The translations under genes and the position numbers were made by a program. DNA of 50,623 bases. Origin: Desulfobulbaceae bacterium. Its GTDB lineage: Bacteria; Desulfobacterota; Desulfobulbia; Desulfobulbales; Desulfocapsaceae. Shown here piece by piece: positions 37,302 through 42,605 of the stretch. The notes below the pieces were generated by a model. It saw only the letters and a list, made by a program, of their open reading frames with translations, did no database searches and was not told the DNA's origin. Every line of letters starts with the position of its first letter. Within the stretch, counting starts at the first letter, position 1. The stretch lies in contig JALSMA010000037.1 in NCBI GenBank assembly GCA_026988015.1, positions 1-50,623 of the forward strand. The letters run 5' to 3'.

Positions 37302-39500
37302 TCAGGAGAGTGCAAACTTAACAGCATTCCCCAGCTGTTCAAACGAATAGGGTTTTTTAATGTAACATGCAGCGCCAAGTGCAATGGCTGCTTCGACATC
37401 TTTACTTGCTGAGAAACCACTTGCGATAACAGCTTTTTGACCAGGTGAGAGAGCAATGATTTTTTCATACGTCTGAAGCCCATTTATCCCAACTCCCATC
37501 AGCATATCAATCAGTACAAGATCAACAGAGTTGTTCATAAAAAATGCGACAGCTTTCTCACCACTGGAAACGGAAACTGTCGAATAGCCGAGCTTCTTAA
37601 GCATTTGTGAGGCAATTTCACGTTGTGTCAGGTCGTCATCAACAATTAAAATTGAGCCATCTCCACACAGCGTTGAGAAATCTACAGCAACTTTCGGTTG
37701 AGCTGTTTCTTTCGACATTGCCGGAAAATAGAGGGTAAAAATAGTTCCGTTTTTATCACTGTTGACATGAATCACAGCTTCGTGATCCTTGACGATGTTC
37801 CAGACAACTGCCAGTCCCAGTCCTGTGCCGCTTCGCCCCATAACCTTTTTTGTATAAAAGGGTTCAAATATTTTTTCGTGATCACCGGCAGGGATTCCCT
37901 TTCCAGTATCCTTAATCCTGAGAACCACATATTCACCGGGGTGTGGTAAATCTGTTGTATTTTTAGTATCAATCACCATGTTTTCAGTGGAGACACTTAC
38001 ACATCCCGATAAATCAATTGCTTCAATTCCGTTAAGGACTAGATTAAATAGAATTTTTTGAATGTGCACAGGAGAGCATTTTATGTTCCACAGTTCTGGG
38101 GTCAAATCCAACACAATTTTCACCTGAGGAGCGAGTGACCGTGTGTTCTGGAATTCCGGAGAATCAATAAATTCTTCGGCAATTGTATTTAATGAACACA
38201 CCTCACTGACAGTGGCAACTCCTCTGGCAACGGTTAACATGTCTGCAACAACGGCAGCAGCACGTTTACCAGAATCATGAATGGCCTTTAACGGCCCATA
38301 AAGTGGATCGTTTTCCGTTAATTCAAGCAGAAGAATTTCAGGATAACTGACCACGCCGGACAAGATATTATTAAGATCATGGGCAACCCCACCAGCCATA
38401 AGTCCGATAGCCTCCATCTTTTCTACCTTACGCAGTTGTTCTCTGGCATTATCTCTCTCACTCTGAGCGATTTTTTGCTCAGTAATATCACGGGCCACCC
38501 GCACAGACCCGACAAATACACCTTTGCTGTCGTGTAGTGGGGACGCAGTGGTAGAAAAGTAGCGTTGTCTGTTATCGTCAAAATATTCAAAGTGGAAGGG
38601 CTCTTTGCTTTCAAGAAGTTTTGAGTGGGGACAACATGCAGGCGGGCTGTCCATTTTATGAATGGACTTGTAGCAATAAGTGCCAATAAGTTCTGTGAGT
38701 GGAATTTTCAGGGCTTTACAAACTGCTGTGTTGGCGCGAATAATCTGCCTTGCTGTGTTCAAGATAATTATTTCATCTGGAACCGCATCGAATGTACGCT
38801 CCCACTCTTCTTTTGCCAACACAGCTATCTCCCTGGCTTGGGTTTTTTCGTGTATTTCTTTGCGGAGTTCTGCCGTTTGTAAGTTGACTTGTTGCTCAAG
38901 GTGGTCATTTAATCTGACAAGTGCCTTCTGTGATCTTTCGCGATAGAGTTCATAAGCAGATGTCAGAAGAATGACAACCATGTAAGAAGAGAGAAAACGA
39001 ATGGCAAAATTTATTGTATACAGGCCAGCGGCGGCAGGCGTGTTGAGATCCAGGAGGAAAACTGCAAGGCAGAAGAGAAAATGAGTCATTGAAACCAGTA
39101 AACCCTTTTGGACACCAAGCATGAAAAAGCTGATAAGGGGGAAGATGTAACACCAGACAAAGGCGTTACCTGCAACTCCTCCTGTGGCTAGGAGATACAG
39201 AAACAGGAAAAACATGAGTGCAATATTGCAGTAAATGCAGAGATTCAGATACCTCTTCTTCCTGAGAAGAAAGACAAATCCTCCCAGGAGAGCAGCCGCC
39301 AGGAAATCCACTGCTGCCAGTGACAGTACTCCCTGCCAAAGAGCGAGGGCCCCGAGTAAGAATAAAAAAAATATACCTACCAGAGAGATGGCATTGAGAA
39401 GACCACGTCTCCTTGTCTCATCGTCGATAATGATGTCTGGAGAAGACAATCCCTCTCTGAGGGTAACAAGAAAAGAACGACGAACAGGTTGTTTATCCAT
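37302..39500 (-). CDS. Membrane hybrid histidine kinase (PAS-HisKA-HATPase-REC)
   Basis: A 732-residue sensor kinase. Five or six membrane helices fill residues 35-190, followed by a short coiled coil, a PAS domain (about 235-350, DAVPDEIIILNTARQIIRAN...), and the HisKA H-box GGVAHDLNNILSG. The ATPase has NLVLNGIEAI, GKGIPAGDHEKIFEPF and SGTGLGLAVV. The C-terminal receiver (about 610-732) has the acceptor Asp in LVLIDMLMG and Lys in YIKKPYS. The signal is unknown. No response regulator is adjacent, so it may act through its own receiver or on the lone receiver gene at 2836. Confidence 0.93.
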   Translation of the reverse strand: MDKQPVRRSFLVTLREGLSSPDIIIDDETRRRGLLNAISLVGIFFLFLLGALALWQGVLSLAAVDFLAAALLGGFVFLLRKKRYLNLCIYCNIALMFFLFLYLLATGGVAGNAFVWCYIFPLISFFMLGVQKGLLVSMTHFLFCLAVFLLDLNTPAAAGLYTINFAIRFLSSYMVVILLTSAYELYRERSQKALVRLNDHLEQQVNLQTAELRKEIHEKTQAREIAVLAKEEWERTFDAVPDEIIILNTARQIIRANTAVCKALKIPLTELIGTYCYKSIHKMDSPPACCPHSKLLESKEPFHFEYFDDNRQRYFSTTASPLHDSKGVFVGSVRVARDITEQKIAQSERDNAREQLRKVEKMEAIGLMAGGVAHDLNNILSGVVSYPEILLLELTENDPLYGPLKAIHDSGKRAAAVVADMLTVARGVATVSEVCSLNTIAEEFIDSPEFQNTRSLAPQVKIVLDLTPELWNIKCSPVHIQKILFNLVLNGIEAIDLSGCVSVSTENMVIDTKNTTDLPHPGEYVVLRIKDTGKGIPAGDHEKIFEPFYTKKVMGRSGTGLGLAVVWNIVKDHEAVIHVNSDKNGTIFTLYFPAMSKETAQPKVAVDFSTLCGDGSILIVDDDLTQREIASQMLKKLGYSTVSVSSGEKAVAFFMNNSVDLVLIDMLMGVGINGLQTYEKIIALSPGQKAVIASGFSASKDVEAAIALGAACYIKKPYSFEQLGNAVKFALS

Positions 39501-39800: not shown

Positions 39801-39830
39801 TTGATAAAAAAACGGAGACGGAGTATATAA
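39801..39830 (+). promoter_or_regulatory. Sigma-70 promoter of the riboswitch operon
   Basis: TTGATA (39801-39806), 17 bases, TATATAA (39824-39830). The first transcribed base falls at about 39837, exactly where the riboswitch P1 stem begins. Confidence 0.75.
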
Positions 39831-39836
39831 AAATTC

Positions 39837-40045
39837 TGCAGGTGCCTCTCGCACATAAAAAGGAAAGACGGTGCGAATCCGTCACAAGCCAGTCATTGCT
39901 GTATTCGAAGTCTGCGGCAACCGTAACTCAAGGATTTAATTGAGTGCTGAGCTCGGTTTTTCCGGGCAGGTCACTAGGGGCTCCCTCCTGGGAAGGCCGT
40001 TGCTGATTCAGGTCAATTCGTAAGTCAGAAAGCCTGCCTGCACAC
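39837..40045 (+). ncRNA. Cobalamin riboswitch
   Basis: The closing stem P1 pairs TGCAGG (39837-39842) with CCTGCA (40037-40042). After it come the conserved core pieces GGTGCC, GGAAAGACGGTGCGAATCC (39861-39879) and, at the 3' end, AAGTCAGAAAGCCTGCC (40022-40038), which corresponds to the B12 box. The peripheral arms in between are longer than average. It would bind adenosyl- or another cobalamin and control the three genes downstream. In known cases cobalamin switches expression off. Confidence 0.87.
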
Positions 40046-40094
40046 AAATGGATTCCCTTTAATCCACATTCAGAGCCTACCACTGGAGTTCTCT

Positions 40095-40190
40095 GTATCC
40101 TGGGAGCATTGCAGCCTCACAACTGTTAGAGAGGTTCTGTACTGCTGTATGGATACGGGGGCTTTCATTTCTTTTGTTTTTCCCGTATCC
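40095..40190 (+). promoter_or_regulatory. Possible riboswitch expression platform
   Basis: GGATACGGG (40151-40159) can pair with CCCGTATCC (40182-40190) across a pyrimidine-rich loop. Its left arm can alternatively pair with GTATCC at 40095-40100. These two structures exclude each other. No T run follows the hairpin, so the switch may act on translation or through Rho; this is inference. Confidence 0.45.
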
Positions 40191-40309
40191 GCATATTGCC
40201 AGTCTCTCTTATAATGGCCTCGCGTGATTGCATGCCTCCTGACTCTATAAAGGCCCGGCAACATATACGAATGAATACAAAAGTTCCTGATAAGGGGGGC
40301 GCGTTGAAG

Positions 40310-41431
40310 ATGGAAAAAAAAAACAGAATATTCGGGCGAATTATCACCCGATTAATTGCAAAAGAAGAACTGTCAAAAACTGAAGCATACGATGCTTTCA
40401 ACATGATCCTCAATAATGAAGTCTCGGACATGCAGCAGGGAGCTTTTCTAGCGGCATTAACTGCTAAGGGAGAAACTGCAGATGAAGTAGCCGGTGGCTG
40501 GAGGGCAATATACGAACTGGACACAGAAAAGGTAACTTTTACAGACCCGGAAGGTGTTGTCGACAACTGCGGCACCGGCATGGACACTTTCAAGACCTTT
40601 AATATCAGCACCGCCGCCGCCATAGTCGCAGCCGGGGGCGGAGTTAAGGTTGCCCGTCACGGTGCCCGGGCAATCAGCTCCGTCTGCGGGACCGTTGATA
40701 TGGCTGAGGCCCTGGGCGTAGATGTGGAATGCGGAGTGGAGGTGGTGGCAAGCAGTATTAGGCAGGCGGGCCTGGGCCTGTTTAACGGTATGAGCTCCAA
40801 GGTGCACCCCATGGCGCTGAGCAGAATCCTCTCCCAGATCCATTTCGGTTCACCACTTAACATCGCCGCCTCCTTGGCCAACCCAGCCCTGCCGAAAATC
40901 GCAGTACGGGGTGTCTACGCAAAAGACCTACTCCTTCCCGTCGCCCAAGTCATGCAATCCATCGGCTATACAGACGCCCTTGTTGTCTACGGCTCCATTA
41001 ATGGCAGTACCCAGGGGATGGATGAAGCCTCTGTATGCGGCACTACCTGCTGCGCTAAGCTTGAAAACGGCAAGATCAGCGAGTTCACCTTTGAACCTGA
41101 AGATTGCGGTCTGCCAACCCATAGCGCCCTGGAGCTTGCGGCTGATGCAAATATTTCCGACGCAGCCGTGAACATGGTAGCACTTCTGGGCGAACATTCT
41201 CCCGGGGCACGGACAGATGCAGTGTTGCTCAACGCCGCTTTACTCTTTCTTGTCAAAGGGATGGTCACCACACTCAAGGATGGTGTTGAACAGGCCCGCG
41301 GAGTCCTTACCACCGGCCAGGCCATGAAAACCCTAAGAGGGTGGGTTGCCCTGCAGAACACCACTCCGGATGTGGGATTAACGAAACTCAACCACCTGCA
41401 GGAAAAGGCCGCAACATGCAGGAACTGCTGA
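40310..41431 (+). CDS. TrpD-fold phosphoribosyltransferase-like protein
   Basis: A 373-residue protein from the ATG at 40310 (AAGGGGGG upstream; earlier in-frame starts run back to a TTG at 40196). It has the Glycos_trans_3N helical domain (about 1-70) and the nucleoside phosphorylase/anthranilate phosphoribosyltransferase domain. The PRPP loop is CGTGMDTFKTFNIST, then VKVARHGARAISSVCGT and ADMAEALG-like residues. The anthranilate-binding parts differ: TrpD has HHPAM, an Arg and GIRTIFN, whereas here the sequence is VHPMALS with IHFGSPLN. It is therefore probably not the tryptophan enzyme, and no trp genes are adjacent. It lies below a cobalamin riboswitch, which suggests a cobamide-related base or a B12-independent bypass. 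Confidence 0.85.
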   Translation: MEKKNRIFGRIITRLIAKEELSKTEAYDAFNMILNNEVSDMQQGAFLAALTAKGETADEVAGGWRAIYELDTEKVTFTDPEGVVDNCGTGMDTFKTFNISTAAAIVAAGGGVKVARHGARAISSVCGTVDMAEALGVDVECGVEVVASSIRQAGLGLFNGMSSKVHPMALSRILSQIHFGSPLNIAASLANPALPKIAVRGVYAKDLLLPVAQVMQSIGYTDALVVYGSINGSTQGMDEASVCGTTCCAKLENGKISEFTFEPEDCGLPTHSALELAADANISDAAVNMVALLGEHSPGARTDAVLLNAALLFLVKGMVTTLKDGVEQARGVLTTGQAMKTLRGWVALQNTTPDVGLTKLNHLQEKAATCRNC

Positions 41432-41634
41432 TCGTCAAAGCCGGGAGCCGATATTATCGTTTCCAAGACCGGCAGTATCATACCTGTGAGCTGAACAAGG
41501 CCAGCGTCTTTCCGATGGAGAAAATTGACACCGTCAAGGAGCTGATCAACAGGCTGCAGGATGATGGCATCAAAAAACCCTATATTGCCAGACTAACCAT
41601 CACAGAAGAGCCTTATTCGGAGGAAGAGTCATAA
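41416..41634 (+). CDS. Small unknown protein of the cobalamin-riboswitch operon
   Basis: A 72-residue protein from the ATG at 41416, overlapping the end of the TrpD-like gene by 16 bases and followed at once by the dehydrogenase gene. It has mixed alpha/beta composition with an acidic tail, one Cys and no signal peptide. I do not recognise the family. The tight overlaps on both sides indicate coupled translation and a role as subunit or partner of the two enzymes. Confidence 0.7.
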   Translation: MQELLIVKAGSRYYRFQDRQYHTCELNKASVFPMEKIDTVKELINRLQDDGIKKPYIARLTITEEPYSEEES

Positions 41635-42605
41635 AACTATCACTGATTGAACGGGGACAACTTGTATGCAGGCAGCATGACGAAGCGGGCTTGGTTCCGG
41701 CAGAACATATTCGCCTTACTGTTCTCTACTGTGCCATCTGCCGGACGGATGCCAAAATGTGGCAGCAGGGGCATCGCGACCTTACCATGCCCCGGGTGCC
41801 CGGCCACGAAATTGGAGCTGTTGATGAACAGACCGGAGCCCTGTACACTATCTGGCCCGGCCAGTCATGCGGAAAATGCCGATATTGCCGTGACAACCGG
41901 GAAAACCTATGCGACGAGATTAAGATAATCGGCTTCCATTCCGATGGAGGTTTCTCCAGCCAGATATCAGTACCGAAGAACTGCCTGATCCCAGTTGAAC
42001 ATGATATTGCCCCACAGCTGCTCTGCTTTGCCGAACCGGTAGGCTGCGTCTTGAACGCGTTATCAGCAGCGAGGATTCAAGAGGGAGAAACAATCATCAT
42101 TTACGGAGGAGGAGTTATCGGCATGATAGCGGCCCTGGTCTGCCAGAATCTGGGCGCAGTACCGCTGGTGATTGAAAACAATGAGGAGAAGATTACCCGC
42201 CTGCAAGCCTTCAGCACTGAGACCGGAATTATAATATGCAAGGACACCCGGGCCAGTGATTTCGATCTTGCCATAAACACCTGTAACTCTCCGGCTGCGC
42301 TAGGGCTCTGTATCACAAAACTTTGTAAAGGCGGCAGACTGTGCTATTTTTCAGGCCTGCAGAAAAACAGTAGCATGGACAGTAACCTGCTCAACCTTAT
42401 TCACTATAAGGAACTCCAGATCATCGGCTCCTATGGCCCGAAAAGGGAGCACATGGTTGCTGCCCTGGTGTTTATTGCCAAGCAATATGCAAAGCTGTCT
42501 CTGCTTATTGAGAAAATCATCACTCCGGAAGATGTACCCGGCCTGATGCAAGATGTCCTGTCGGCACGACCATTAAAATATATCATCAATTTCCAGGAGC
42601 AATAA
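41631..42605 (+). CDS. Zinc-type medium-chain alcohol/polyol dehydrogenase
   Basis: A 324-residue MDR dehydrogenase if translated from an ATA at 41631. This codon overlaps the upstream stop (ATAA) and has GGAGGA 7 bases before it. A TTG at 41691 would cut off the first beta strands (KLSLIERGQLVCRQ). The catalytic zinc site is suggested by LYCAICRTDAKMW and VPGHEIG. The structural zinc loop SCGKCRYCRDNRENLC has four Cys, as in threonine and sorbitol dehydrogenases. The cofactor-binding segment is IIYGGGVIGMIAALVCQ. The substrate is unknown; it is presumably linked to the TrpD-like enzyme's product or precursor. Confidence 0.83.
   Translation: MKLSLIERGQLVCRQHDEAGLVPAEHIRLTVLYCAICRTDAKMWQQGHRDLTMPRVPGHEIGAVDEQTGALYTIWPGQSCGKCRYCRDNRENLCDEIKIIGFHSDGGFSSQISVPKNCLIPVEHDIAPQLLCFAEPVGCVLNALSAARIQEGETIIIYGGGVIGMIAALVCQNLGAVPLVIENNEEKITRLQAFSTETGIIICKDTRASDFDLAINTCNSPAALGLCITKLCKGGRLCYFSGLQKNSSMDSNLLNLIHYKELQIIGSYGPKREHMVAALVFIAKQYAKLSLLIEKIITPEDVPGLMQDVLSARPLKYIINFQEQ

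Follow-up and report, generated by a model that had tools for sequence, protein, structure and literature searches.

The riboswitch-led operon and its products

In a 50,623-nt stretch of DNA from a Desulfobulbaceae bacterium (JALSMA010000037.1; hereafter the window, or contig C37; the genome is 99.8% complete), a cobalamin riboswitch aptamer precedes three genes that encode a TrpD-like phosphoribosyltransferase, a small protein and a zinc-dependent medium-chain dehydrogenase/reductase (MDR; here ADH). We analysed this operon as a candidate source of cobamide lower ligands (Table 1; L, G and C numbers are our handles for loci, genomes and contigs). The first-pass annotation, made from the window alone, had proposed a cobalamin riboswitch at this site, and a covariance model agreed, RF00174 being the only Rfam match above gathering score in the whole window. 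The element is predicted, and presumably able, to bind a cobamide and change expression of the genes behind it. When folded, the leader that follows was no more stable than shuffled sequences (z 0.35), and it held no clear expression platform. A promoter had been claimed as well, yet a consensus scan for sigma-70-like promoter sites found none (1.6 expected by chance), which leaves the TTGATA/TATATA pair as only a possible one. The three genes do overlap tightly, as had been claimed, by 16 nt between the TrpD-like and small genes and, if ADH starts at ATA, as ATAA between the small gene and ADH.

Table 1. Features of the riboswitch-led operon in the window
Feature	Position	Strand	Remarks
Possible promoter, TTGATA-17 nt-TATATA	39801..39829	+	Spotted by eye
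Cobalamin riboswitch aptamer, RF00174	39823..40055	+	cmscan 48.3 bits (gathering score 31.5), E 4.1e-9, full model 1-189
Leader, aptamer to first gene	40056..40309	+	Perfect 9-nt inverted repeat, 40151-40159/40182-40190
TrpD-like phosphoribosyltransferase with altered acceptor site, 373 aa	40310..41431	+	PF00591/PF02885; TIGR01245
Small protein, 72 aa, no known family	41416..41634	+	NKASVFP motif; homologue in 65/86 loci
Zinc-dependent MDR dehydrogenase (ADH), 324 aa from ATA	41631..42605	+	PF08240, 51.9 bits

The first product resembles TrpD in its fold and in its phosphoribosyl pyrophosphate (PRPP) and Mg motifs. It passed the TrpD profile TIGR01245 (260 bits; cut-off 199), and its AlphaFold model (predicted local distance difference test, pLDDT, 91.7) overlaid TrpD 1o17 with Z 43.9 and a root-mean-square deviation (rmsd) of 1.9 over 342 residues. 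The GTGxD, NIST and DE motifs of TrpD bind PRPP and Mg. The window protein keeps NCGTGMD and FNIST, and residues G88, G90, D92, T96, N98, S100, D238 and E239 were invariant in an alignment of TrpD-like sequences (76/76). It differs from TrpD in lacking the Asn and Arg residues of the anthranilate site, which we take to be the KHGN Asn together with both arginines of RRE(L/M)G. When aligned with TrpD 4hkm, A119, L174 and S175 stand in place of the KHGN Asn and the two Arg of RREMG, and L174 was likewise invariant in all 76 of the 76 sequences. We tentatively equate the KHGN Asn and both RREMG Arg with N138, R193 and R194, which were varied in Mycobacterium tuberculosis structures. The earlier claim that the PRPP loop is kept and the anthranilate pattern lost was thus borne out.

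The TrpD-like gene further differs from trpD in lying outside a trp operon and behind a B12 riboswitch; the window genome has its own trpE-trpG-trpD-trpC-trpF on contig C75. A 59-sequence tree set 39 TrpD-like rows apart from 19 trpD rows, with support of 100/100 for the trpD side. The fork holding the 39 TrpD-like rows, which excludes one long-branched row of a second, divergent gene pair ('pair 2', described below), had support of 89/40. The annotation had asked whether the protein would place inside tryptophan-pathway TrpD; given the separate clade and the trpEGDCF genes elsewhere in the genome, it did not. Judged by its sequence, the TrpD-like protein is not a tryptophan enzyme. One relative (L010, G033:C1:3526038-3527131), with an RF00174 match in front, has its TrpD-like gene in two frames that break at query residue 205; identity is 76% before the break and 48% after it, pointing to a frameshift or a chimera.

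In ADH, C37, E60, E135 and C80/83/86/94, which we take to be catalytic and structural Zn ligands, were invariant in 39/39 sequences, as were G159/161/164 of the GxGxxG motif. Its best NCBIfam matches were L-threonine 3-dehydrogenases, at 89.6 and 82.7 bits against cut-offs of 380 and 458, the second being the equivalog TIGR00692, which ADH fails. The probable start of the gene is the ATA at window positions 41631-41633, which shares bases with the small gene's stop codon and is possibly a non-canonical start codon. At this position ATG is found in several relatives and ATC in the closest one, L032; the first common start codon would otherwise be TTG at 41691.

The AlphaFold2 model of the small protein had a pLDDT of 95 and matched no structure in the PDB at E <0.5 (best Foldseek E 0.58). 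By VIA structure comparison the best Z was 5.0, at 5.4 Å over 65 residues, from which no fold was concluded, and a Pfam search of 61 family members gave weak matches alone (best E 0.0027). All 7/7 Bacillota loci have the small protein, but none of the 4 archaeal and 2 Kiritimatiellota loci yielded it. It probably acts as a partner or accessory subunit.

Conservation of the pair and its link to CobT

A scan of genome contigs for TrpD-like relatives gave 86 loci, 80 of which were kept (identity 49-82%). The carriers belong to Desulfobacterota, Bacillota (Acetobacterium, Eubacterium callanderi and Alkalibacter), Kiritimatiellota, Bacteroidota, a Sabulitectum and Methanomassiliicoccales, and the gene set occurs in sulfate reducers, acetogens and some methanogens. 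The TrpD-like gene is rare, being found in 12/395 genomes of an evenly drawn sample of the window's phylum (E 1e-100) and in 4/145 genomes of an archaeal phylum sample (E 1e-90). In a Bacteroidota sample, the 4/395 matches at E 1e-80 were the centre genome, G081, and three 'pair 2' genes of ~271 bits. Each of these samples includes its own centre genome (G000, G091 and G081), and with such strict E limits divergent copies may be missed.

ADH adjoined the TrpD-like gene on the same strand in 78/89 loci, downstream in 61 and upstream in 17 (the 89 include L005 and L045, which are on the same contig; L151 and L152 share contigs with L046 and L111, and L147 with L101). The same adjacency was seen in 14 of the 15 loci (11 bacterial, 4 archaeal) from the first two phylum samples; in the lone exception, L160, the contig ends ~160 bp upstream of the TrpD-like gene. 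Most Desulfobacterota have the order TrpD-like-small-ADH, and ADH-TrpD-like(-small) is found elsewhere. Because the adjacency of ADH is conserved and the small protein is confined to the loci counted in Table 1, the conserved core is ADH plus the TrpD-like protein, with the small protein as an accessory. Of the three genes that the annotation had grouped into one transcription unit, the conserved core thus comprises two; the small protein, missing from the archaeal and Kiritimatiellota loci, is outside it.

Several of the 11/89 loci that lack an adjacent ADH are truncated: contigs end ≤130 bp past the TrpD-like gene in L011, L067, L093 and L104, and at 845 bp in L035. In L036, an ADH:CobT gene sits behind an inserted gene, and other genes occupy the place of ADH in L034, L038 and L040; in G058, the genome of L034 and the one genome checked, a separate contig carries the C-terminal part of an ADH joined to CobT. 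These loci (L034, L035, L036, L038 and L040) form a Desulfobulbaceae-type subgroup in which an opposite-strand gene (~380 aa if complete) or other genes follow the small gene, with ADH:CobT behind the intervening gene or moved away. At L041:2569-3871, the TrpD-like gene is followed by a cut-short small gene and then by the last 45 residues of CobT, reflecting an operon deletion or an assembly join.

Riboswitch control was conserved along with the pair. RF00174 lay directly upstream of the first gene in 46/54 bacterial loci (the window and 53 others), compared with 0/20 canonical trpD control loci of the same order. The 54 combine counts of 12/14, 10/13, 11/13, 3/3 named loci and 9/11 phylum-sample loci, with the window added and L151 left out because it repeats L046. 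The Fisher p of 5e-12 is a guide only, since the loci are related and the control loci hold ≤1.5 kb on each side (one control, L024, was not in the tree). The distance from aptamer end to first gene was 64-298 nt in the 26 loci measured, and in L153 and L155 the match spans model positions 47-167 only. RF00174 was missed in L046, L051, L057, L060, L068, L088, L094 and L160 (8/54). Among these exceptions, L088 and L094 are inside B12-related operons, the former behind cobJ/cbiH and precorrin-6A reductase genes and the latter preceding a periplasmic-binding/FecCD transporter.

The strongest clue to function came from fusions to CobT, which activates the base of the cobamide lower ligand. In L032, the ADH part is 81% identical to the window ADH and the protein continues into a PF02277 (CobT) domain (439 bits). 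Such ADH:CobT fusions were found in 48/62 loci with ADH downstream of the TrpD-like gene (10 unfused, 4 cut off) and in 0/17 loci with ADH upstream. Unfused CobT directly follows the TrpD-like gene in L153, L154, L155 and L158. CobS comes next after CobT in L154, L155 and L158, with TIGR00317 scores of 109, 138 and 129 bits against a cut-off of 110, the L154 protein falling 0.9 bits short; in L155, CobD follows CobS. The CobT link thus occurs in two different arrangements, as a fusion to ADH and as an unfused CobT behind the TrpD-like gene. L098 reads CobU-CobT-CobS-riboswitch-ADH-TrpD-like and carries CobD:CobQ on the opposite strand. Among 78 distinct CobT sequences in a tree of the fetched loci, 45 were fused and these formed one clade. 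All 45/45 fused sequences keep RLGEGTGA, the motif in which we place the catalytic Glu. A passage of a published study of CobT gives this residue as Glu 317 (PMC9561151). That none of the products is a known B12 gene, another claim of the annotation, holds for the three window proteins, none of which matched BluB or the ThiC/Bza models PF01964 and TIGR04386, but not for the ADH relatives that are fused to CobT.

As a separate observation, trpB and trpA (both above cut-offs) lie directly upstream of the riboswitch-ADH-TrpD-like-CobT-CobS operon at L154:1415-7999.

Lower-ligand genes were profiled in 80 genomes, 51 with the TrpD-like gene and 29 relatives without it. The 51 carriers are a non-random set (42 from the 80 loci, picked to favour long contigs, and 9 from another search), and drafts may miss genes by chance. 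CobT was encoded in 51/51 carriers (47 by PF02277, 4 archaeal by TIGR00303) versus 25/29 non-carriers, and CobS in 50/51 carriers. We rejected the idea that the TrpD-like protein replaces CobT, as the four Methanomassiliicoccales genomes without PF02277 have a TIGR00303 CobT above cut-off. BluB scored above cut-off in 1/51 carriers versus 4/29 others, and 11/51 carriers had neither a ThiC/Bza-family match nor BluB above cut-off. The fused CobT is the only CobT in four genomes (G072, G073, G076 and G083), and G072 and G073 are also without a ThiC/Bza-family match and without BluB above cut-off.

Eight genomes (G064, G066, G068, G069, G070, G074, G075 and G077) have, beside the fused CobT, a second CobT directly behind a Bza-like gene. 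We use 'Bza-like' for a lower-scoring class of the ThiC family, so labelled because its examples follow RF00174 or precede CobT; NCBIfam did not split ThiC from BzaF in the 20 genes scanned, and one passed the BzaB model. The Bza-like/CobT pair lies behind RF00174 in at least two of the eight genomes (G070 and G075), among the matches listed. By analogy, a Bza-like gene with a second CobT follows the same plan, only with another enzyme making the base. On contig C76 of the window genome, too, a Bza-like ThiC paralogue stands directly behind a strong RF00174 match of 99.8 bits (L163:1794-3393), and this genome may make a hydroxybenzimidazole-type base as well.

A proposed module for lower-ligand supply

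We propose that the operon is a dedicated cobamide lower-ligand supply module, a reading to which we assign a probability of about 0.72. The annotation had suggested that a PRPP enzyme under cobalamin control could serve the lower ligand, and this suggestion is supported by the ADH:CobT fusion, the ADH-TrpD-like-CobT-CobS operons, the CobU/CobQ neighbours and the conserved riboswitch. Since ADH is fused to CobT, as BluB is in BluB/CobT2, the product of ADH is expected to be the substrate of CobT. In that precedent, as described in part of PMC4657239, the fused protein makes 5,6-dimethylbenzimidazole (DMB) and channels it to CobT.

In the proposed scheme, cobamide would switch the operon off via the riboswitch. 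When the operon is on, the TrpD-like protein would transfer phosphoribose from PRPP to an uncharged aromatic amine that carries no carboxylate, or to an N-heterocycle. ADH, which depends on NAD and zinc, would then oxidise the sugar part of the adduct, freeing the finished base, and CobT (fused, adjacent, or encoded elsewhere as in the window genome) would turn this base into an alpha-ribotide for CobS. The most parsimonious route that we can draw would start from an o-diamine that takes up the phosphoribose, after which C1' would close on the second amine. Oxidation at C3' would allow retro-Mannich cleavage of C1'-C2', releasing a benzimidazole-type base and erythrulose 4-phosphate. By this route the electrons would balance, two enzymes would suffice, and neither O2 nor radical chemistry would be required. 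We offer this particular chemistry tentatively and think it unlikely in its details. Equally tentative is the broader idea of a third synthesis of imidazole-type bases, independent of O2 and free of radicals, in which PRPP would give the ring carbon, a TrpD descendant would attach it to an o-diamine, a polyol-type zinc dehydrogenase would trigger C-C cleavage and a fused CobT would channel the product, across Desulfobacterota, Bacillota, Kiritimatiellota, Bacteroidota and Methanomassiliicoccales.

Several points weigh against a supply module. We infer its substrate, product and chemistry, and a gene for supplying an o-diamine is missing from the operon. The CobT part is absent from the window by tblastn, with no remnant seen, and the only CobT of the window genome lies elsewhere, in a cob operon with CobS (the neighbouring genes score slightly under the CobU and CobC cut-offs). 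Four archaeal genomes carry the pair without an RF00174 match, 'pair 2' lacks RF00174 in 4/4 loci, and in L094 the TrpD-like gene is found in a transporter operon without ADH. Eubacterium callanderi, a carrier, has two adjacent Bza-type genes, one of them above the BzaB cut-off. More generally, a PF01964 match was missing from 11/51 carriers versus 5/29 non-carriers; because Bza-type genes are no scarcer among carriers, the pair does not simply stand in for Bza, and simple substitution for Bza or BluB was rejected for lack of anticorrelation.

Alternatively, the pair could act on the ribosyl side, making or recycling the phosphoribosyl donor for CobT or salvaging ribazole-type nucleosides. This would fit the PRPP/Mg site kept in the TrpD-like protein, the ribotide donor (nicotinate mononucleotide, NaMN) that CobT needs according to a passage of PMC9561151, and the presence of the pair beside Bza-type genes, where a second base would be redundant. 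We consider it rather improbable, because it leaves the dehydrogenase unexplained and because BluB, the lower-ligand enzyme known to be fused to CobT, is one that forms the base (PMC4657239).

The threonine dehydrogenases among the best ADH matches, although far under their cut-offs, raise the alternative that ADH serves the aminopropanol linker and the TrpD-like protein has a separate task in nucleotide-loop assembly. The L155 operon, which runs on as CobT-CobS-CobD, points the same way, but CobT rather than CobD is the fusion partner, the linker is already made by CobD and PRPP would be without a role, making this very unlikely.

No better placed is the B12-independent bypass that the annotation had named as its alternative, with the pair as isoenzymes expressed only under cobalamin scarcity. 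Cobalamin riboswitches also control metE and nrdD, as stated in a portion of PMC8620254, and the riboswitch itself is all that favours a bypass here. The CobT fusion, the CobU/CobT/CobS neighbourhoods and the presence of CobT in every carrier genome (51/51) speak against it. To our knowledge, there is no B12-dependent reaction that the ADH/TrpD-like pair could replace. Finally, an ordinary tryptophan-pathway TrpD with a chance neighbour would account for the shared fold and the TIGR01245 score, yet is made negligible by the genome's own trpEGDCF, the separate clade, the lost acceptor residues and the riboswitch and CobT linkage.

Relation to known lower-ligand systems

If the lower-ligand module is as we propose, new enzymes would be carrying out a function of a known class, lower-ligand supply. 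Among the matches listed from open-licence PMC papers, we found no description of the TrpD-like/ADH/CobT set; a list of variable Chlorobium genes names trpD and 'DH', without linking them to each other in the part seen (PMC8620254). BluB is an O2-using flavin enzyme that turns a sugar carbon into the imidazole carbon of the base. The likeness to BluB/CobT2 lies in the fusion of a base-making enzyme to CobT and in the fate of that sugar carbon, both base making and this carbon transfer being only proposed for the window-type set, and the difference in that no sequence relation to the set was seen. The anaerobic benzimidazole pathway of BzaAB/BzaF relies on radical enzymes of the ThiC type, which act on aminoimidazole ribotide (AIR). 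With it the set, whose base making is again a proposal, shares a base maker placed directly before CobT, and all eight genomes with that arrangement also carry fused ADH:CobT; it differs in that the three window proteins match neither of the models PF01964 and TIGR04386.

ArsAB, which activates phenols, resembles the set as a CobT-type activation of a special base, and we know of no TrpD-like or ADH partner of ArsAB. The tandem CobT pair at L088 provides a further likeness: at L088:6248-9356 and in L141 (Bacteroidota), a further CobT of strongly divergent sequence stands in tandem behind ADH:CobT, an ArsAB-like arrangement. ArsAB itself consists of two tandem cobT genes, according to a passage of PMC6461909, and the window differs in that its genome has one CobT.

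According to passages of PMC6461909, which takes bluB, bzaA-F and tandem cobT (arsAB) as its lower-ligand markers, a ligand could be predicted for no more than 58% of predicted producers. The gene set described here would be a new lower-ligand marker and probably a new pathway. Whether organisms can share a cobamide depends on the chemistry of its lower ligand. Such a marker would bear on the base used by these anaerobes, which becomes testable in the isolates Desulfospira joergensenii, Alkalibacter mobilis and Eubacterium callanderi. The set would further provide a clear example of B12 synthesis drawing an enzyme from the tryptophan pathway.

The genes of 'pair 2' resemble the window pair in being adjacent ADH and TrpD-like genes (L028:535-2583, from the same genus, and L190-L192, from the Bacteroidota sample). 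They differ in sequence, the TrpD-like proteins being 31-33% and the ADH proteins 30-39% identical to those of the window, and the TrpD-like motifs are GTGSD and KKGAR. Sensor-kinase-type genes, recognised by eye, adjoin both versions of the pair in the genus (window 37302-39500, minus strand, and L028:2733-4061), possibly by chance.

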